Of a DNA stretch of 29,115 bases, positions 1,314 to 10,636 are shown piece by piece (the first letter of the stretch is position 1; the number at the start of each line of letters is the position of its first letter). Position numbers and translations under genes: made by a program. The notes beneath the pieces are model-generated. The model had not been told where the DNA came from, did not search any database, and worked only from the letters and a program-made list of their open reading frames with translations. Origin of the DNA: a virus; IMG/VR virus record IMGVR_UViG_3300050821_004828, positions 1-29,115 of that record; one strand, written 5' to 3'.

Positions 1314-1586
1314 CTACGGAGCCGGGACCGGAACCCGTTGCAGCCATTCTCCAGTTTCATATGTAAATGACCAAAGCGTATCGTCGTCGGCGAGGATAAA
1401 GACCCGGGATTGCCCGACCGGGCCCGGATAGGTTCCCGCCGTTAAATCGACCGGGATTCCCGTTCCGCCGTACGGGACCGCGACCCAATTTAGCGGGACC
1501 TCGGTCGAGTCGGCTTGCCAGATCGTATCGTCCGACCGGATCGCGAATAACCAGAGGTTCGCGGTCGCTATTTTTAGGATCGTCAT
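1314..1586 (-). CDS. Tectonin-like two-blade protein, third of a tandem trio
   Basis: A 90-residue protein with two copies of a beta-propeller blade motif: LWLFAIRSDDTIWQAD followed by NWVAVP, then RVFILADDDTLWSFT followed by EWLQRVP. The pattern (hydrophobic strand, SD-x-x-L/I-W, then a W-containing strand) is that of tectonin/tachylectin-type propellers, which bind sugars. Two blades are too few to close a propeller, so it must pair with other copies. Its ATG overlaps the TAA of the preceding paralogue (TAATG), indicating translational coupling and perhaps matched amounts. The lectin role is inferred from the repeat type. Confidence 0.5.
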   Translation of the reverse strand: MTILKIATANLWLFAIRSDDTIWQADSTEVPLNWVAVPYGGTGIPVDLTAGTYPGPVGQSRVFILADDDTLWSFTYETGEWLQRVPVPAP

Positions 1587-1888
1587 TAGCTTAAGTAGGG
1601 TACCGAGAGCCAGCTTCCCGAGTCCCGGTCGTAGCGCCAGAGTTGAGTCGAGGTCGAAACGAAGAGGTATAAATTCGCCGACGGGCCGGGCCAGCGGTTC
1701 GCGCAGATCGCGCTAATCGGCCCGGTTCCGGGGAAGGCCGGGCTTAACGCTTTCCAGCCCGTCCGGTAATCGTCCGAGTAATAGATCGCATTATCCGACC
1801 CGAGGGCGAAGAGGGTATGCGCGGTCGAGGCGAGCGCGTTAATCGTCTTCGGCGGCGGAGCGGGCGCTAAAGGAGTCGTTTCGGACAT
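1586..1888 (-). CDS. Tectonin-like two-blade protein, second of the trio
   Basis: A 100-residue paralogue of its neighbours on both sides. After a Pro-rich N-terminus of about 17 residues come two blade motifs: TLFALGSDNAIYYSDDY with GWKALSP, and NLYLFVSTSTQLWRYDRD with SWLSVP. It starts three bases after the TAG of the first trio member and its own stop overlaps the start of the third. It is probably a sugar-binding propeller piece in a tail adhesin. It may combine with the two neighbours into one ring, which is an inference from copy number. Confidence 0.5.
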   Translation of the reverse strand: MSETTPLAPAPPPKTINALASTAHTLFALGSDNAIYYSDDYRTGWKALSPAFPGTGPISAICANRWPGPSANLYLFVSTSTQLWRYDRDSGSWLSVPYLS

Positions 1889-1891
1889 ATT

Positions 1892-2164
1892 CTAGGGCGT
1901 ATTCTCTTTAAACCAGCTATTCGCCGGGGTTAACCGCCAGAGGCTCCCGTCCGAAACCGTACAGTAAAGCGAGAGGCTCGGGTCGCTCGGGAACATCCGG
2001 GCGAGGGCGATACTAGAGACGACGCCCGCGCCCGACCCGCTCCAGGCCGGTAACGCGCTCCACTGTAACGGTTCCCGGGTCGACGCGACCCATAGCGAAC
2101 CGTCGCTTTTTAGCCCAAATATCCTAAATTGGTCGGAGACGATTACCTGGAGCGTAGCGGGCAT
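1892..2164 (-). CDS. Tectonin-like two-blade protein, first of the trio
   Basis: A 90-residue protein with two blade motifs: RIFGLKSDGSLWVAST with QWSALP near residues 14-40, and LYCTVSDGSLWRLTP with a final W near residues 66-84. The repeated SDGSLW core is the clearest view of the motif in this trio. The start lies four bases downstream of the stop of the 677-residue collagen-like fibre gene, with AAGGAT just before ATG. This placement suggests that the trio decorates or caps that fibre. No enzyme motif is seen. Confidence 0.5.
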   Translation of the reverse strand: MPATLQVIVSDQFRIFGLKSDGSLWVASTREPLQWSALPAWSGSGAGVVSSIALARMFPSDPSLSLYCTVSDGSLWRLTPANSWFKENTP

Positions 2165-2168
2165 ATCC

Positions 2169-4202
2169 TTAGAAGTTGTTAATTAAATTCGCTCCTTGCC
2201 ATACCGCCGCCGAAGTATTCGACCGGAACGCAACCTCCCAGAGGTCCAAGCTATCCGTATAGGAAGTCGTTCCCGAAGCTCCGTTCGAGATATACCGGAC
2301 GACCGTTAGCGGGATCGAGGTTCCGGGAACGTTCGCGGTAATTAAGCTCGATTTCGCCGGAGCCGTCCCGCCCCAAGAGTAGATCTTAAAATAGACCCCG
2401 GACGCGGTAAGCGAGAACGAGAGGTCCATCCAGGCGGAGGTACTGTAGGCGACCGTCGTATCCGTCCAGGTTACGGTCGAAGCGTTTACCGTTTTAAGAT
2501 ACCAATTGTTCGCGGCGTTGGTTTGTCCACTCGAAGGATCGAAGGTAAAGAAAACGCCGTTCGCCGGAGCGTAAACGCCGGTCGTTGGCGTGGTTCCGAG
2601 ACCGAGATGGATAATCGCGAGATTGGCTGCCGTGCTCGTTGGTTTGGTCGACGGAGCCAGGTAGACGCAACGGAAAGCGAGCGCTCCGCCCGCTCCGATA
2701 ACGAAGCCGTTCCCCGAGACTTGCCCCATGTAACCTGTCGTTCCGTTACTGGTCCCCGTCGTCAGATTAAAAATACCACTGTGGTCGCTAACCGAGGTCC
2801 CTTGCGCTCCGGCGACCCCGGTCCCGGTTCCGAGAATAACCGAACTGGTTAGCGAGGCGTTTAGGCCGTTTAGGAAATGGTCCCGGTAGCTGTTAATCGT
2901 CGGGGGCGCTAAAGTGTCCTCGGGGAGGATAGGCGGGGCGGTCGGGACGGCGAGGGTAAGAACGTTCCCGGCGACCGAAACGATCGTTAGAGCGCCCGCT
3001 AGGCCGCTCCCGCCCGCTCCGGCGAAATAGGCTAGCTCGCCCGGTACCGCCCAGCTCGCGTCGGCTACGGTTACCGTCGTCGTTCCGCTCGACGGAACGG
3101 TAAACGGGCCGCTCGTCGTCGTGTAACAATTTTTACCGGCGGCTCCGGTCGAGCCGGTATTACCCGCCGGACCTTGCGATCCCGTAGTTCCGGCGACGCC
3201 TTGGGGAACGGTAAAGTTAAAAACTGCGGCCGAACTCGATCCGCTATTCGTTACGCTCGCGTTCGATCCGGCGCTTCCGGTCGTCGTCGTTCCGACCGCG
3301 ATCGTCGCCGCGCTTCCCGCCGGGCCCGTATTCCCGATCGGACCCTGGGAACCGGTCGGTCCGGTCGCGCCGGTCGAACCGGTATCGCCCTTCGGTCCTT
3401 GCGGGCCCGGTACGGTCGAATCGGCTCCCGCCGGTCCGGTATTCCCGATCGGCCCTTGCGGCCCTTGCGGCCCTTGCGGTCCTGTAGCGCCGGTCGGTCC
3501 TTGCGGTCCAGGTACAGTACTATTGGCTCCCGCCGGGCCGGTCGCGCCGGTATTTCCGGTCGGCCCTTGCGGTCCTGTAGGCCCGGGAACTCCCTGTACG
3601 CCTTGGGGACCAGTATTTCCGGTCGGTCCCGCCGGACCGGTACTTCCCGTAGCGCCCGCTGGGCCTTGCGCGCCCTGCGGGCCGGTCGCGCCGGTCGCTC
3701 CGGCGGGCCCTTGGATCGGCCCTACGTCGACCCACGTTCCCGGCGTCGACCAGACCCAGCCGTGTCCCGTGTCGCTGGTAACCCAGAGGTCTCCGAAGGT
3801 ATTCCCGGTCGACGGTAAGTCCGCGTGGGTATCGACCGCTCCTTTTAGGACGACCGAAGTTCCATCGTTCCCTTTCGGCCCTTGAGGACCGGTTGGACCT
3901 TGGATGCCTTGCGGACCGGTCGGACCGCTCGGTCCGGTACTTCCCGCCGGGCCGGTCGCTCCGGTATTCCCGGTCGGTCCGGTCGGTCCCGGTTCGCCGA
4001 CCGGACCGATATTTCCGGGATCCCCTTTCGGGCCGCTCGGCCCGGTCGCGCCGGTCGGTCCCGCCGGGCCTACCGGACCGGGAACTCCGGCGGCTCCGCC
4101 TCCGGCGACGGTAACGAGAATCGACTCGTCGACGTTAAGGACGGTTAGCGAGGTCGAAACCGGGCTAACGGAAACCGAAGTAGTCGTACCGGGAGCGGGC
4201 AT
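2169..4202 (-). CDS. Collagen-like tail fibre, modular
   Basis: A 677-residue fibre protein. Residues 39-114 and 162-297 are almost uninterrupted Gly-X-Y repeats, as in collagen-like phage fibres that form trimeric shafts. Between them (about 119-162) is a compact module with GDLWV, HGWVW and WVDVGPIQG, a common spacer in phage fibres. Residues 298-340 and 358-425 carry two further beta modules that recur in neighbouring genes. The last 240 residues (from about 437) form a Ser/Thr/Gly-rich, lectin-like head with a DLWEVAFR strand near the end. Strong GC skew and repeats make this stretch prone to length change by slippage or recombination. It is very likely a host-recognition fibre; the receptor is unknown. 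Confidence 0.75.
3312..3719 (-). repeat. Gly-X-Y coding repeat, second collagen block
   Basis: Encodes residues 162-297 of the 677-residue fibre, with Gly at almost every third position and many Gly-Pro-Gln/Gly-Pro-Ala/Gly-Asn-Thr triplets. Two copies of a STVPGPQGP unit divide it, which points to internal duplication. Such blocks often vary in length between related phages. Confidence 0.85.
3861..4088 (-). repeat. Gly-X-Y coding repeat, first collagen block
   Basis: Encodes residues 39-114 of the 677-residue fibre as continuous Gly-X-Y triplets, rich in Gly-Pro-Thr and Gly-Pro-Gln. It ends at GNDG, where the globular GDLWV-containing module starts. Confidence 0.85.
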
Positions 4203-4205
4203 AGC

Positions 4206-4580
4206 TTAAGACGGGGTTACCTCCGTCGCGTCGTCCCAAGGCGGCGAATCCTCGACCGTTAACGGCCCGGCAACAACAACAGTTGTGGTACCGGTCGTTC
4301 CGGAAGGCGAACGGACGAACTGCCACGTGTACGGTTTTGCGGCGACGAGCGGCTCGGTCTCGGCGTCCGGAATCTCGAAGGAAACGACATTCGTTTCGAC
4401 CCCGGGATTCCGGTTCGCGATTACCGGAACCGATCCGGTTATCGGCGGAGTCGGGAAAACGAAAAGCGCTAAACCGTCCCCGCTAACGTCGAACGGATTT
4501 TTCTCGGCGTCGTAAAGGGTAAAGTTCGCCGTCCAGACGCGATTCCGAAAGATGGTAACCGGGACGTTAAAACTATTCAT
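4206..4580 (-). CDS. Small Ig-like/BppU-type tail accessory protein (copy 2)
   Basis: A 124-residue beta-rich protein. The opening (VTIFRNRVWTANFTLYDAE followed by NPFDVSGDGLALFV) resembles the N-terminal domain of baseplate upper proteins, in which a hydrophobic strand, an acidic turn, N/D-P-x-D-L/V and a further strand build an Ig-like fold. A similar 119-residue protein is encoded at 6844-7203, so the locus has two paralogues. It sits just before the 677-residue fibre gene. It probably attaches or organises fibres; this is inferred from fold similarity and place. The ATG follows a short GTTAAGCGCG leader with no Shine-Dalgarno. Confidence 0.45.
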   Translation of the reverse strand: MNSFNVPVTIFRNRVWTANFTLYDAEKNPFDVSGDGLALFVFPTPPITGSVPVIANRNPGVETNVVSFEIPDAETEPLVAAKPYTWQFVRSPSGTTGTTTVVVAGPLTVEDSPPWDDATEVTPS

Positions 4581-5094: not shown

Positions 5095-5346
5095 TTAGAC
5101 CCGGTCTTTCGAAGCGAACTCGGTTTCCGCCGCTTCTTTCCCTTCCTCCTCGGAAGCGAAAGTACCGAGATGGTAGTTGGCGAAGCCGGGACTTTTCTCC
5201 TCGATCCGGATTACCCAGTAAGTTCCATCCTCCGACTTGTTGACCCGGTAGGAAATTCTATCGGAAGCCGTTCCGACCGCGACAGTCGCCGTTCTCGTAA
5301 ATTCCTCGGGTAAGGGATCGATCCACTTTATAGCGTTGCTACTCAT
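5095..5346 (-). CDS. Unknown 83-residue protein between fibre genes
   Basis: I do not recognise this protein. It is small and acidic, with a beta-strand-rich centre (RISYRVNKSEDGTYWVIRIEE) and a charged, probably helical C-terminus (SEEEGKEAAETEFASKD). Its ATG overlaps the TGA of the upstream collar fibre gene (ATGA), so translation is probably coupled. By position it may help that fibre to fold or bind; no motif proves this. It has no signal peptide, membrane segment or Cys. Confidence 0.5.
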   Translation of the reverse strand: MSSNAIKWIDPLPEEFTRTATVAVGTASDRISYRVNKSEDGTYWVIRIEEKSPGFANYHLGTFASEEEGKEAAETEFASKDRV

Positions 5347-6839
5347 ATTCGGATTAGTTTCGAAACTACCGCGAAAGGCGGCATTGTATTATGGGGGGTA
5401 CCGAGTCCCGCCGGATCGGACGAATTCGTACTCGGTCCCGCCGTCGTATTTACGTTCGGTCCGGAGGTCGTTAAATCCCGGTCCGCCGCCGCCGTATACG
5501 CCCAAGCGCCGTTCGTCTGCGAGGCGTAAATAGTATTCCCGGCGGGCGTATTCGCCGCTCCGGTCGTTAGATCCCGGTCCGCCGCGCCGGTATTCGGATA
5601 ACCGGCGGCGCTCGCCGTTCCGGTACTTCCGGCGGGGAGCGTTACGTCGCTCGTATTACTCGTAAGCTGGCCCCAAGCGGCGGTCGCGACGCCCCACTGG
5701 TTTCCGGCATTAGCGGGCCAGACGTACGTGTGGTGGTGGTTGAACTGGCCCGCCGGGATCCCGTGGGCGTGGTCCATGTTATGGAGATGGTTTACCCCGG
5801 GATGGGTATGGGACCCCTGGACGTTCCAGTTATGGTAATGGTCCATGTAGTGCAGATGGTTTACCCCGACGTGGGTATGGTTCTGCATCGAGTGGGTATG
5901 GTTCCCGAGGGTATGGGAATGGGGGGCTTCTTCCGCGACTAAAAGGGCGTGGGCCTCTTCGCCCCCGGTCGCGCCCCGGACCCGGTTCGTCGCGCCCGAG
6001 TACGTTCCCGTTCCCGAACCGACCCCGACCCGGCCCCGGAGATCCGGAACGTTAAAGGTACTCGACCCGTTCCCCTGGCCCCAAGGGGAAGCCGCGCCGC
6101 CTAAGACGGCGTACAACCCCGAGTAAGTCGTCCGGCTAACCGCCGCGCCGTCGCACGGGAGCCAGCCCGCCGGAGGATTTAGCCCCGCGAAATCGATAAT
6201 CGTCCCGGTCGGCATCGGGGAGGGATGGCACAGATTATCCCCGCCGACGTAATCGGTCGAGACCCCGCTCGTCGTCCCTAAAAGACCGGGAGCCGTCGGG
6301 CTCGCGAAAACCTTATTCGTTATATTCGGCCAGTCGACGGCGAGCGCTACGGCGGAGGTATTTACGATCCCGTCCGAGTCCGGATCGTAGACGGCGCGGA
6401 ACATATCTCCGCCCCCGCTAACCCCGCCCGATCCCGAAAGATTTTTTACGGTTAACGTCGTTCCGCTTTTCCCGACGACCTGGAGGTCTCCGGCGTTCCC
6501 GCTTCCGGACGCCCCGGCGAAATAGAGCATCTGCCCGATGGTTATCCAGCTCGCATCGGAAACGTTTACCGTCGTCGTCGCCCCGATAAGCGGGATCGTA
6601 AACGGGCTCGTCGTCTTCGCGCTCGCGTTCGATCCCGCCGGGATCGTAAAATCGAGGACGGCGGCGTTCGAATTCCCGGAGTTATGGACGGCGGCGGGAC
6701 TTCCGGGAATTCCCGTAACCGTCGCCCCGACCGCGACGGTCGCCGCGACCCCCGGTACGCCCATCGTCTGCTTACTGTAGAAAACGACCGGCGTTTCGCT
6801 CGTTGTTACGTTCGTCGAACTATCCGTTAGATCGGCCAT
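5343..6839 (-). CDS. Tail-collar fibre with His-rich (HxH) metal-binding tip
   Basis: A 498-residue fibre. Residues 31-68 and about 74-133 repeat two beta modules also present in the 677-residue fibre. A phage tail-collar domain spans about 210-300, with TGTIIDFAGLNPPAGWLPCDG and TFNVPDLRGRVGVG as its hallmarks. Residues 307-370 contain nine His-x-His pairs (first His at 307, 314, 321, 328, 334, 344, 351, 357, 368). The last part holds two DRDLTT repeats and ends with MPPFAVVSKLIRI, the usual end of collar proteins. In the T4 long-fibre tip, HxH pairs from three chains hold iron ions, so this is probably a metal-bound trimeric receptor-binding tip. The stop overlaps the next start (ATGA). Confidence 0.8.
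   Translation of the reverse strand: MADLTDSSTNVTTSETPVVFYSKQTMGVPGVAATVAVGATVTGIPGSPAAVHNSGNSNAAVLDFTIPAGSNASAKTTSPFTIPLIGATTTVNVSDASWITIGQMLYFAGASGSGNAGDLQVVGKSGTTLTVKNLSGSGGVSGGGDMFRAVYDPDSDGIVNTSAVALAVDWPNITNKVFASPTAPGLLGTTSGVSTDYVGGDNLCHPSPMPTGTIIDFAGLNPPAGWLPCDGAAVSRTTYSGLYAVLGGAASPWGQGNGSSTFNVPDLRGRVGVGSGTGTYSGATNRVRGATGGEEAHALLVAEEAPHSHTLGNHTHSMQNHTHVGVNHLHYMDHYHNWNVQGSHTHPGVNHLHNMDHAHGIPAGQFNHHHTYVWPANAGNQWGVATAAWGQLTSNTSDVTLPAGSTGTASAAGYPNTGAADRDLTTGAANTPAGNTIYASQTNGAWAYTAAADRDLTTSGPNVNTTAGPSTNSSDPAGLGTPHNTMPPFAVVSKLIRI
5730..5921 (-). repeat. HxH array of the 498-residue collar fibre
   Basis: Encodes residues 307-370 with nine His-x-His pairs. The first four are exactly seven residues apart and later ones vary from 6 to 11. 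The unit NHLH-x-MDH-x-H occurs twice (residues 327-336 and 350-359), which points to a duplication. Confidence 0.85.
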
Positions 6840-6843
6840 ATTT

Positions 6844-7203
6844 TTAAGGTACGATTACGAGTACCGAAGGCCCGATCGCGACGGGGCCTTCTAAGCGGGT
6901 TTGGGTTACGCCGGTTGGATCTTCATAAACAATCTCATAATCAGCGCTCGCGGTCGAAGCCCATCCCGATCCGGAAACCGAAACGAGGAACGAATACTTC
7001 CCGAAGGCGAGATCGCTCGTGTAAAAATGCTCGCTTAGATAAAGAGCGCGGGAATCCGGATCGGTAATATTTCCCTTTATTACCATCGCAATCTTCATCC
7101 CCCTTAAATCCCACGGGTTCCCTTCGTCGGTTAATTCCGTGACGCTGAGAACGAAGTCGCGGTTTAAGCGAAGCGAAATGGGCATGTTAGCCGGAGTAGC
7201 CAT
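6844..7203 (-). CDS. Small Ig-like/BppU-type tail accessory protein (copy 1)
   Basis: A 119-residue beta-rich protein. The motif ISLRLNRDFVLSVTELTDEG followed by NPWDLRGMKIAMVIKG matches the layout of the 124-residue protein at 4206-4580 and of BppU-type N-terminal domains. It lies between the two collar fibre genes. Its ATG overlaps the TAA of the upstream fibre gene (TAATG), so it is likely made in step with that fibre. It is probably a connector or adaptor of the fibre assembly. The family assignment is tentative because similarity is judged by eye. Confidence 0.45.
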   Translation of the reverse strand: MATPANMPISLRLNRDFVLSVTELTDEGNPWDLRGMKIAMVIKGNITDPDSRALYLSEHFYTSDLAFGKYSFLVSVSGSGWASTASADYEIVYEDPTGVTQTRLEGPVAIGPSVLVIVP

Positions 7204-8756
7204 TAATATTTTATCAATTTATTCAGGACCGTATACGGACTCATGTTGTTCGCCGGGACGTTATTTCCCGTATTCGCGAGCGAAATATTGGCGTGGCTCG
7301 TACCGAGCCCGATCCCGGTCGTTCCGGCGTTAACGGTAATATTCGCGTTCGAGGGAACGATCGAAGCGTTCGTTACCGAGGGATTAAGGGTAAGCCCGGT
7401 CGCCGCTCCGTTTATCGAGAGATTGGCGTTTGCGGCTTGGATCCCAATTCCCGTACCGGTTCCATAAATCGCCACTCCCGTCGGATTAGTACTCGTATAC
7501 GAGTTAAAGCGCCAGACCCCGTGCGATCCATAATTTATTTCGTAGTCGGGCGTCCCGTCTATACTCTCGTATCCATATTTCGGAATCGAATCCCGCCCGG
7601 CTTGCGGCGGCCCGGAATCCGAATTCGTTTCCATAAACCCGATATGTTTATGGCCCGGATCGTAGACTAAATGGGCGTGCGAAGGGTCGCTAATCCCGTG
7701 GGAGTGGGGGCTCTGGTTAACGCCGTGGGCGTGCCCCGGGTCGTAATAAGTATGGGCGTGCCCGGGGTCGGAGAGAGCGTGGGAGTGCTGGGATTGGGTT
7801 AAAGAGTGGGTATGCCCGTTATCGTTAACCGGGTGGACGTGCCCCGGGTCGGTAACCGAGTGGTTATGGGAGGGCATCTCGGCGACGCTTAAGATATGAG
7901 TTTCCTCGCCCCCGGAAGCGGCGAGCGAACGATTCGTTAAGCCGACGCCCGTTCCGGCCCCTAAACTCATCCTCCCGCGCAGGTCGGGTACGTTAAACGT
8001 ATCGCCCGAGCCGCCGAACGAATATCCGATAACCGCGAAGAGATTCGCGAAAAGTCCGACCGCATTATACGTCGACCCGTCGCATATTAACCATCCCGGC
8101 GGCGGCGTCGCCCCGGCGTAATCGATAACCTCGCCGACGATCCTCGGTACGCTCGCCCAGCTCGCGTTCGTCGTTCCGACGAGAACCTTCGACGGGTCGT
8201 CTGGGGTCTTCGGGATAAGGCCGACGTCGTTAACGTTTCCGACCGGGAGCGGGTCGGTCGAACTACCGTCGGTCCGCTGGAGATGCGTAACGGCATGCAG
8301 GGCAGGAGGGACAAGCGGCGAAATCGTCGCGACGGTATTCGGGGTACTCGAAAAGGTTATCGTTAACGAGTTGTAATCGAGAACCGCGCTCGCCGGGCCG
8401 GACGGACTAATCGTATCCGGGGGATCGGTTGTATAATGGTACGCGACCATTACCGGTACCCCGCCTTCCCCGAGCTTCGCGAAGAGGCCGACTTCCCGTA
8501 ACGCGTAGCTCGTCGTTACCTCGGTACTATCGATAATAAATTGATATGTGCTCTGGTAGGGGACCAGTGCATTCGACGACGTAATATTGTAAGTCGCGAC
8601 GACGTGGACTAAGTCCTCTAAGGTCGCCGGATCGGTCGCGCCGACCGCCCCGTCTCCGCAAATAATCGCGACCGGATAAATCGTTCCTCCGGCGACCGCC
8701 GCGTTCGAGAAAAGGGTTTCGCCGTTCGCGGTAATGACTGCTGAGTAGTCGGCCAT
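7203..8756 (-). CDS. P2 gpH-like tail-collar fibre with a perfect HxH repeat
   Basis: A 517-residue fibre. Residues 1-150 match the N-terminal tail-attachment domain of P2 gpH-type collar fibres (ITANGETLFSNAAVAGG, later TTSYALREVGLFAKLGEGG). A tail-collar domain follows at about 205-290 (GEVIDYAGATPPPGWLICDG and TFNVPDLRGRMSLGAG). Residues 297-371 contain nine His-x-His pairs spaced exactly nine residues apart. The C-terminal 130 residues are Asn/Thr/Gly-rich and end in MSPYTVLNKLIKY. It is the only fibre here with the baseplate-anchoring N-terminus, so it is the best candidate for the primary fibre held by the gpI part of the upstream protein. GGAG nine bases before ATG is a good Shine-Dalgarno. 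Confidence 0.85.
   Translation of the reverse strand: MADYSAVITANGETLFSNAAVAGGTIYPVAIICGDGAVGATDPATLEDLVHVVATYNITSSNALVPYQSTYQFIIDSTEVTTSYALREVGLFAKLGEGGVPVMVAYHYTTDPPDTISPSGPASAVLDYNSLTITFSSTPNTVATISPLVPPALHAVTHLQRTDGSSTDPLPVGNVNDVGLIPKTPDDPSKVLVGTTNASWASVPRIVGEVIDYAGATPPPGWLICDGSTYNAVGLFANLFAVIGYSFGGSGDTFNVPDLRGRMSLGAGTGVGLTNRSLAASGGEETHILSVAEMPSHNHSVTDPGHVHPVNDNGHTHSLTQSQHSHALSDPGHAHTYYDPGHAHGVNQSPHSHGISDPSHAHLVYDPGHKHIGFMETNSDSGPPQAGRDSIPKYGYESIDGTPDYEINYGSHGVWRFNSYTSTNPTGVAIYGTGTGIGIQAANANLSINGAATGLTLNPSVTNASIVPSNANITVNAGTTGIGLGTSHANISLANTGNNVPANNMSPYTVLNKLIKY
7644..7868 (-). repeat. Nonapeptide HxH array of the 517-residue fibre
   Basis: Nine His-x-His pairs begin at residues 297, 306, 315, 324, 333, 342, 351, 360 and 369, an exact nine-residue (27-base) period. 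The usual unit is D-P-G-H-x-H followed by three residues, with QSQHSH and QSPHSH as variants. Confidence 0.9.
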
Positions 8757-8774: not shown

Positions 8775-8782
8775 ACTTACCC
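8775..8782 (-). promoter_or_regulatory. GGGTAAGT leader motif before the gpH-like fibre
   Basis: An exact GGGTAAGT on the minus strand. Its TAA is the stop codon of the upstream gpI-fusion gene (GGG TAA). It stands 18 bases before the fibre ATG and is followed by a separate GGAG Shine-Dalgarno. The same word occurs before other genes here. Confidence 0.45.
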
Positions 8783-10636
8783 GGCGCTCGACGCTCCTAG
8801 TCTCCGGATCCGGAGCCGGAAGAAAGCCGGGCCCATATACACCGTCGAGTTACCGACCGTTCTTATCCGGGCAACCGGATCGGGCCAGCGGCTAACCGGT
8901 TTCGTCGCCAGAATCGCCCGGTTCATTATCGCGATCCGGTTCGGATCGATTACCGGGTCGGTTGTTCTCACCCGGAACCGGTACGGTTTTCCTTCCGGAT
9001 ACTCCCACCACTCCTCAACGATCGCCTCGTGGAAGACGAAGTTAAGAAGCTTCTCGACGGAAGCGGGAGTCCCGAGATGCGCATTATCAAAACAGGCGCT
9101 TAAGACGAGGGCCCGCTTCTGATCGAGGGGCATCGACATATCGTACCCGACCGCCCGAAAATCCAACATTCCGAGCTGGTCGAGAAGATCTTCCGGTAGC
9201 GTCCGGATCTTCGATTTAACCCCGAGTTCGTTAAGCTTCGCCGGGTCGACGTGCGTTAAAAAGGTTTGGAGCGCGTTCGTAAACGCCGCCGTCATCGCCT
9301 TAAAGCTCGGGTTCTCGAAAACGACCTCCGGCGTCGGGCTCGTTAAATCCGAGCTAAAGATCGAATCGTTCGGGTTCGCCGGGACCGGGGCGAGAACGAT
9401 CGGGGGAAACGTTTCGCCCGGCGCGATCGGAGTCGGCGGAGGCGGAGTTCCGTCCGGCGGCGGAATAATAACCGGCGGCCCGGGCGGGATCGGCGGGACG
9501 TAGAGATAGGGCCCGATCGGCCACGAGCCCGCGATCGCCGCCCCGTCCCGGTCGACGGTTATCGGGGTCGGGATCCCGGCTCCGATTAGAAAGGAGTCGG
9601 AAGCGAGCCGGTAATTAAGCGGCGGGTTAACGAACTTCGGGTCGCCCCCGTTAATAAAATTTACGCCCTGGTTCTCGTTATTAATCTTCGGAGCGTTATT
9701 CGCTCCGGCGAAATAGTTATTCGAGATAACCCCCTGGCTCGGGGTCGCGGAGTTAAAGTTAATATCTTTCGCGTTATTCCGGAAGACGTTATTATAGAAC
9801 TTAAAGCCGTCGCTATTATATTTCGGATCGGTCGAGTAGAGGCTAACCGCGTAGCCCTGGTTGGCACCGACGTTATCGAAGATATTATTATAGAAAGCGG
9901 TATTGGGGATCCCGCTAAAGAGCGAGTTATCGATATTAAGAAAGAGATTATTCGCGAAGACCCAGTCGCGAACGTTCGGGTTCCCGTCGGTCTCGGTATT
10001 CCCGCACTGGCAGCTAGAGTTCCGGACCGTATTATTAATAAATAAGACGTTATAGGAGACGGTCCCGGAACCGAACCCCCAGGTCTGGACGAAATCCGTA
10101 TGGTTAAGCTGGTAGTTAATCTGGGAGAGATTATCGACCAGACAGTTACTAACCGTAATATCGTGGCCCCAGATATGGAAGGCGTCGATGTCGTTAATAT
10201 TAAGGATCGAGCAGCGGTCGACCGTCTGGAAGAAGCCGGAGGTCGCGATCGCGGCCTTCTGCTCCTGGGCGGTCGCGAAATAGTTCGTTACGATGCAGCC
10301 CTCGACGATATTGTTATTCCCGTCGAGATTTATCCCGTCGCCGCCGCTCGGCCCGGTATCGGGCGGGCTTACCGTTAGCCCGGAAATCGTTAAATAGGCC
10401 CCCTCGATATAGAGGCAGCCGAGGACGATCGGGTTCCCGTTCCCGGCGAAAGTAATCCGGGCGATCGCCGTCCCGCTCTTATCGAAGCGCGGGGCTTCGG
10501 GATAAGTTCCCGGTAAAATATTTACGACGTCGCTCGGACCGGCGACCGCCGCGCTCTTCCCGATCGTCGCGAACGGAAGATCCGAAGTTCCGGGGTTCGA
10601 ATCGTTCCCGGTCGGAGAAACGTAGTACGTACTCAA
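8777..10636 (-). CDS. I: Beta-helix protein fused to baseplate protein gpI
   Basis: A 619-residue fusion. Residues 1-380 form a right-handed parallel beta-helix: YYVSPTGNDSNPGTSDLPF at the start, then many Asn-rich turns (NNNIVEGCIV, NNTVRNSS, FYNNIFDN, YNNVFRNN), ending like pectate-lyase-type repeats (GSWPIGPYLYV). Residues 381-425 are a Pro-rich linker. Residues about 435-619 match P2 tail protein I (PFxAMTAAF region, PEDLLDQLGMLDFRAVGY, and RWPDPVARIR near the end). P2 gpI is about 176 residues long and has no such helix. The helix could bind or cut surface glycans, but I see no proven catalytic residues. The start is TTG overlapping the gpJ stop (TTGA). Confidence 0.8.
   Translation of the reverse strand: MSTYYVSPTGNDSNPGTSDLPFATIGKSAAVAGPSDVVNILPGTYPEAPRFDKSGTAIARITFAGNGNPIVLGCLYIEGAYLTISGLTVSPPDTGPSGGDGINLDGNNNIVEGCIVTNYFATAQEQKAAIATSGFFQTVDRCSILNINDIDAFHIWGHDITVSNCLVDNLSQINYQLNHTDFVQTWGFGSGTVSYNVLFINNTVRNSSCQCGNTETDGNPNVRDWVFANNLFLNIDNSLFSGIPNTAFYNNIFDNVGANQGYAVSLYSTDPKYNSDGFKFYNNVFRNNAKDINFNSATPSQGVISNNYFAGANNAPKINNENQGVNFINGGDPKFVNPPLNYRLASDSFLIGAGIPTPITVDRDGAAIAGSWPIGPYLYVPPIPPGPPVIIPPPDGTPPPPTPIAPGETFPPIVLAPVPANPNDSIFSSDLTSPTPEVVFENPSFKAMTAAFTNALQTFLTHVDPAKLNELGVKSKIRTLPEDLLDQLGMLDFRAVGYDMSMPLDQKRALVLSACFDNAHLGTPASVEKLLNFVFHEAIVEEWWEYPEGKPYRFRVRTTDPVIDPNRIAIMNRAILATKPVSRWPDPVARIRTVGNSTVYMGPAFFRLRIRRLGASSAG

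Follow-up and report, generated by a model that had tools for sequence, protein, structure and literature searches.

Three tandem paralogous genes for predicted two-blade, PLL-like propeller proteins in the tail-fibre region of a contractile-tail phage

The DNA analysed is a 29.1 kb virus record (IMG/VR IMGVR_UViG_3300050821_004828), and this whole stretch is referred to here as the window. At its left end, among tail-fibre genes, three small adjacent genes lie on the minus strand, named g3, g2 and g1 in order of transcription. Gene g3 (1892–2164) encodes 90 residues, with a first blade at ~2027–2164 and a second at ~1895–2026. Gene g2 (1586–1888; 100 residues) opens with a 12-residue Pro-rich N-terminal extension, followed by blades at ~1721–1852 and ~1589–1720, and g1 (1314–1586; 90 residues) carries blades at ~1458–1586 and ~1317–1457. 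These assignments draw on open reading frames and paralogy, together with codon usage for g3 and g2 and an AF2 model for g1. An adjacent trio of 90, 100 and 90 residues had been described in an earlier, sequence-only reading of this DNA, and its coordinates, strand and lengths agree exactly with the open reading frame list. The TAATG stop/start overlap which that reading placed between the second and third genes (g2/g1) is likewise present in the junction sequence, at 1584–1588 on the minus strand.

The g3/g2 junction (1886–1894, minus strand) reads TAG-AAT-ATG, and the two genes share a reading frame. Gene g1 occupies the −1 frame relative to g3/g2, and its frame is open upstream as far as position 1712. 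In frame 0, the codon usage of all three genes resembles that of other phage genes (0.36–0.47 bits/codon), and both remaining sense frames score negative. Because g3 and g2 are in frame, readthrough of the g3 TAG would yield one 192-aa, four-blade g3-g2 protein. The TAG is read here as an ordinary stop, since it terminates several other genes in the phage; an alternative code in which TAG specifies Gln was rejected for the same reason.

The phage has a contractile tail, as judged from genes for terminase GpA, a portal, a sheath-like protein, GpU, Baseplate_J and Tail_P2_I. It also encodes two Collar fibres and collagen-like proteins, and all genes listed are on the minus strand. Directly upstream of the trio is the gene for a 677-aa collagen-like tail fibre (2169–4202; PF01391, E=5e-28; PHROG tail families), which is a possible carrier of the three proteins. 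Directly downstream (695–1300) is a gene for a protein of 201 residues, in which a short collagen-like segment is recognisable from the sequence and which gives no Pfam match, and the last gene before the contig end specifies a 213-aa concanavalin-like (Laminin_G_3) protein (48–689; PF13385, E=1.4e-6). It is from gene position that attachment of the trio to the tail is suggested, as is a role in receptor binding as an adhesin.

Several other genes of the window, also on the minus strand, merit description in their own right. A 619-aa open reading frame with a TTG start (8777–10636) combines an N-terminal right-handed β-helix (PF22842, 2e-9) with a C-terminal Tail_P2_I region (3e-15), a combination that may join a polysaccharide-active domain to the baseplate I protein. 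Two proteins of ~120 residues beside the fibre genes (4206–4580 and 6844–7203) are perhaps fibre adaptors; their similarity is weak, at 30% over 37 residues (E=4e-5 in a single comparison). Both Collar-domain fibres (5343–6839 and 7203–8756) contain extended His-rich regions in which HxH motifs are numerous, as they are in phage fibres that bind metal.

A propeller blade is a repeated, four-stranded antiparallel unit of ~40–50 residues, and a β-propeller is a closed ring of 4–12 blades. AF2 modelling of g1, using an alignment of the three phage sequences alone with neither PLL sequences nor templates, gave a mean pLDDT of 85.9 and a pTM of 0.75; two of the five models were good and three were poor (pLDDT 55–57). 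The predicted strands fall into two groups of four, at residues 3–9, 12–17, 22–25 and 34–37, and at residues 45–53, 59–66, 71–75 and 80–84, in keeping with one four-stranded blade per group. Together with blade matches across the genes, these eight strands bear out the view that each protein holds two blade repeats. The repeats had been described as SDxxLW blades, but the strict motif occurs in only two of the six blades, both in g3; the four in g1 and g2 read SDNAIY, STSTQLW, SDDTIW and DDDTLW.

In a Foldseek search of the PDB with the g1 model, the leading matches with an identifiable fold were propellers. The PLL lectin entries 5c9l/5c9o appeared at ranks 2 and 5, CV39L was also among the top matches and tectonin 2 was found at rank 25; the best E-value was 0.008, a modest value of the kind expected from a short query. 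VIA-align superposed the g1 model on nvPizza2 with Z 8.6 over 76 of the 84 nvPizza2 residues, and gave Z 8.9 for both Pizza6S and CV39L and Z 8.2–8.6 for Pizza2/nvPizza2. As a Z of ~8 may reflect just a common arrangement, the case for a propeller leans on the agreement between fold and sequence. The two-blade model also found fold matches in BFVD among sawfly nucleopolyhedrovirus proteins of ~100–120 residues (Q6JK87, Q6JK88 and Q6JP96); one of these is annotated as RCC1-type, and they are possibly further natural short propeller chains.

A profile built from the trio matched the PLL-family lectin 8q82 with E=4.1e-5, through repeated in-register alignments, and this was the best sequence match in the PDB. 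Neither outcome named beforehand as refuting the proposal, profile searches devoid of propeller similarity or confident models with each protein in its own closed ring, was encountered. Against the NCBIfam beta_propeller_lectin model (NF052348), g3 scored E=0.0015 and 17.6 bits, far below the cut-off of 200, and g2 and g1 gave no match to this model in the NCBIfam scan. Within the fetched locus set, the trio profile matched a seven-repeat, PLL-type protein from a Chlorobiaceae MAG (locus L088) at 2e-10. That MAG protein (L088 6636–8792) shows weak similarity to Peptidase_C13 (20.6 bits, under the cut-off of 22.8) and ends in a PLL-type lectin propeller of seven repeats, which matches PLL2 at E 1e-137.

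Scans of g1, g2 and g3 against Pfam, PHROGs and NCBIfam returned no significant family. Specifically, the Pfam fungal fucose-lectin profile matched none of g1, g2 and g3 at E≤10, and the tectonin family was not found in the Pfam or NCBIfam scans. In the proposal of a tectonin-like propeller, the propeller is supported by the profile, the AF2 model and the fold comparisons; as to family, the PLL lectins stand nearer to the trio than the tectonins, although one tectonin also matches in fold. Taken together, sequence and model support the assignment of g1, g2 and g3 as two-blade propeller parts of a PLL-like blade type, and the sequence matches suggest a relation to the PLL family that is distant only.

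Two kinds of sugar site are known from PLL-family lectins: a hydrophobic site in PLL3, formed by the pair Trp203 and Trp218, and a polar site in PHL, comprising Arg91, Glu93 and Trp107. These positions were mapped onto the phage blades by eye via the alignment, which equates Trp203 with the Trp of the xLW motif and Trp218 with the second Trp of WxxW. Trp occupies the Trp203 position in five of the six phage blades and the Trp218 position in none. The Arg-x-Glu pair and the Trp107 residue of the polar site are each absent from all six. With the Trp218, Arg-x-Glu and Trp107 positions lost, the blade pattern has been kept and the known PLL sugar sites have not. The ligand of the trio may accordingly differ from that of the PLL lectins, or binding may be absent.

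Pairwise identities among the three proteins are 32–38%, and their alignment scores lie 8.8, 10.8 and 13.1 s.d. above those of shuffled sequences, with none of 2000 shuffles scoring as high. By this comparison g1, g2 and g3 are paralogs, copies of one ancestor. Blade-by-blade alignment across the trio, with blade limits taken from the AF2 model, gave a mean z of 6.9 for blades in the same position vs 2.6 for first against second blades, a difference that vanishes when the blade labels are swapped in one gene or two. First and second blades do match across genes (g1a/g2b, z 6.6; g1b/g3a, z 4.9), and inside a single gene the first and second blades align with z of 3.3, 2.8 and 0.2 in the three genes. 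That blades in the same position are most alike argues for duplication of a two-blade unit and not for the splitting of a six-blade gene. The best explanation for the trio is that it arose through such duplication in the tail-fibre region of the phage. In the literature, growth of propellers from a two-blade unit is recorded as rare, a large survey having found a single example (PMC9218822).

The same evidence makes it highly improbable that the trio represents what is left of one six-blade gene after disruption by a stop codon and a frameshift, or a single gene split by a sequencing artefact. Such an origin would account for the in-frame arrangement of g3 and g2 around one TAG and for the −1 frame of g1, open upstream to 1712, and propellers interrupted by stops and frameshifts are on record (PMC9218822). 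However, the gene ends of the trio fall on blade ends, every gene begins with an ATG of its own and shows intact codon usage, and the blades resemble one another in the way expected after duplication of a two-blade unit. The Pro-rich extension of g2 would also be unexpected between adjacent blades.

Relatives of the trio were sought in several collections. No match was obtained by tblastn of g1, g2 and g3 in named phages; scans of viral contigs by short patterns, a method of limited sensitivity, were likewise empty for g3, for g1 and for the trio profile. The g2 scan returned six viral loci, but the match was a 19-residue segment inside a different, glycosyltransferase-like open reading frame, and these loci were rejected because the trio profile scores that frame at E ~5. 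A trio relative was found neither among 80 loci retrieved by a baseplate J profile and searched with the trio profile nor, with the trio profile and NF052348, in 46 whole records of baseplate-J loci. The C-terminal part of the collagen-like fibre, used as a query, recovered no relative, and the loci L002 (88% in J) and L003 (identical in terminase), both short fragments, gave no trio match. A profile combining the trio with the L088 blades showed too little conservation to serve for scanning. Within the collections searched, and at this limited sensitivity, no relative with the trio arrangement was found.

A single two-blade chain would be unable to close a ring, and closure would thus proceed by oligomerisation. 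Precedents for this are well described. The two-blade chains of RSL and BambL trimerise into a six-blade ring and acquire further sugar sites where the subunits meet (PMC6631993, PMC11883740, PMC5478714); the designed two-blade chain Pizza2 self-trimerises to six blades (PMC7337062); and two-blade WD40 fragments form eight-blade homotetramers (PMC6805158). The statement that two blades cannot close a propeller is consequently correct for a monomer and fails for oligomers. Nor does it follow from two blades per protein that three genes make one ring, as RSL, BambL and Pizza2 close as homotrimers; these homomeric precedents leave a three-gene ring as one option among several. For the trio, we infer that three chains would most likely form a six-blade ring, with four chains and eight blades also possible, and that each paralog would more probably assemble its own homomeric ring. 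The phage would then have as many as three small, related adhesin heads that differ in specificity, and rings with three-fold symmetry would match fibres of the same symmetry. This reading, of duplicated two-blade PLL-like chains that oligomerise into rings, more probably homomeric for each paralog, is preferred tentatively and with somewhat less than even confidence. Counting against it, PLL-type blades normally form seven-blade rings, which two-blade subunits cannot give; the three poor AF2 models of g1 and the loss of most PLL/PHL sugar-site residues weigh in the same direction.

In the alternative assembly, g1, g2 and g3 would join 1:1:1 in one six-blade hetero-propeller with six non-identical inter-blade pockets. 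Such a ring is somewhat unlikely, though it would explain why tandem paralogs are kept separate, similar in size and closely packed; three proteins of two blades make six, and the overlap between g2 and g1 is just as compatible with a mixed ring. Modelling also allows g3 and g2 to contact each other with propeller geometry. The fused g3-g2 protein, read through the TAG and aligned with g1 and the seven-blade PLL-type L088 sequence, gave an AF2 model with pLDDT 71.6 and pTM 0.68. All four of its blades superpose on six-blade Pizza6 in a single contiguous stretch of 161 residues (Z 15.2, rmsd 2.6), and Foldseek returned TMq values of up to 0.66 for Pizza6 entries, with PLL lectins and tectonins also matched. 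On this model, mixing of g3 and g2 in one ring is possible, but the covalent fusion and the seven-blade alignment rows bias it towards a mixed ring, and it cannot tell hetero- from homo-oligomers. Against a mixed ring, the natural two-blade cases known are homotrimers, and when propeller fragments that differed in blade number were mixed, in another family, only homo-oligomers resulted (PMC6805158). A narrow word search, with incomplete coverage of the literature, found no description of a natural ring assembled from two-blade subunits that differ from one another. From the two-blade precedents and the failed engineered hetero-oligomers, homomeric rings are slightly favoured over a mixed ring. 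That the phage tail bears a natural 1:1:1 hetero-propeller, whose six non-equivalent pockets could evolve separately via single small genes, is also unlikely. It is quite improbable that the proteins close no independent rings and bind instead as small subunits, for example in capping or chaperoning the adjacent collagen-like fibre. The location of the trio between fibre genes, its lack of an obvious fibre-attachment domain and the absence of most PLL-family sugar-site residues would fit such a role; yet no similarity to tail-fibre chaperone families was seen in Pfam, PHROGs or NCBIfam, and the propeller fragments studied to date fold as closed oligomers (PMC7337062, PMC6805158).

The neighbouring two-blade paralogs, three in number and diverged from each other, offer a natural test of whether a propeller can be assembled from mixed subunits, an assembly that failed with engineered fragments of another family (PMC6805158). 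If tail-borne, the trio would also constitute a modular phage adhesin made from unusually small units.

Among known systems, the PLL/PHL lectins of Photorhabdus (NF052348) have a blade pattern in common with the trio and are also among the leading fold matches, but carry seven blades per chain vs two in each phage protein. The tectonins, such as tectonin 2 of Laccaria bicolor and fish-egg lectin, are propeller lectins that match the phage model in fold; they hold a whole ring in one chain, and a sequence match to the trio was not detected. Pizza2/nvPizza2 match the two-blade chain over nearly their whole length, but unlike the phage proteins they are artificial, NHL-derived and built of identical blades. 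RSL (Ralstonia solanacearum lectin) and BambL (Burkholderia ambifaria lectin), both of AAL type, resemble the trio in being small two-blade chains. No sequence similarity of RSL or BambL to the trio was detected through the Pfam fungal lectin profile or the PDB profile matches, and both are absent among the fold matches listed for the g1 model, where similarity is still possible. In RSL and BambL, one gene product forms the homotrimer, whereas the phage encodes three tandem paralogs.
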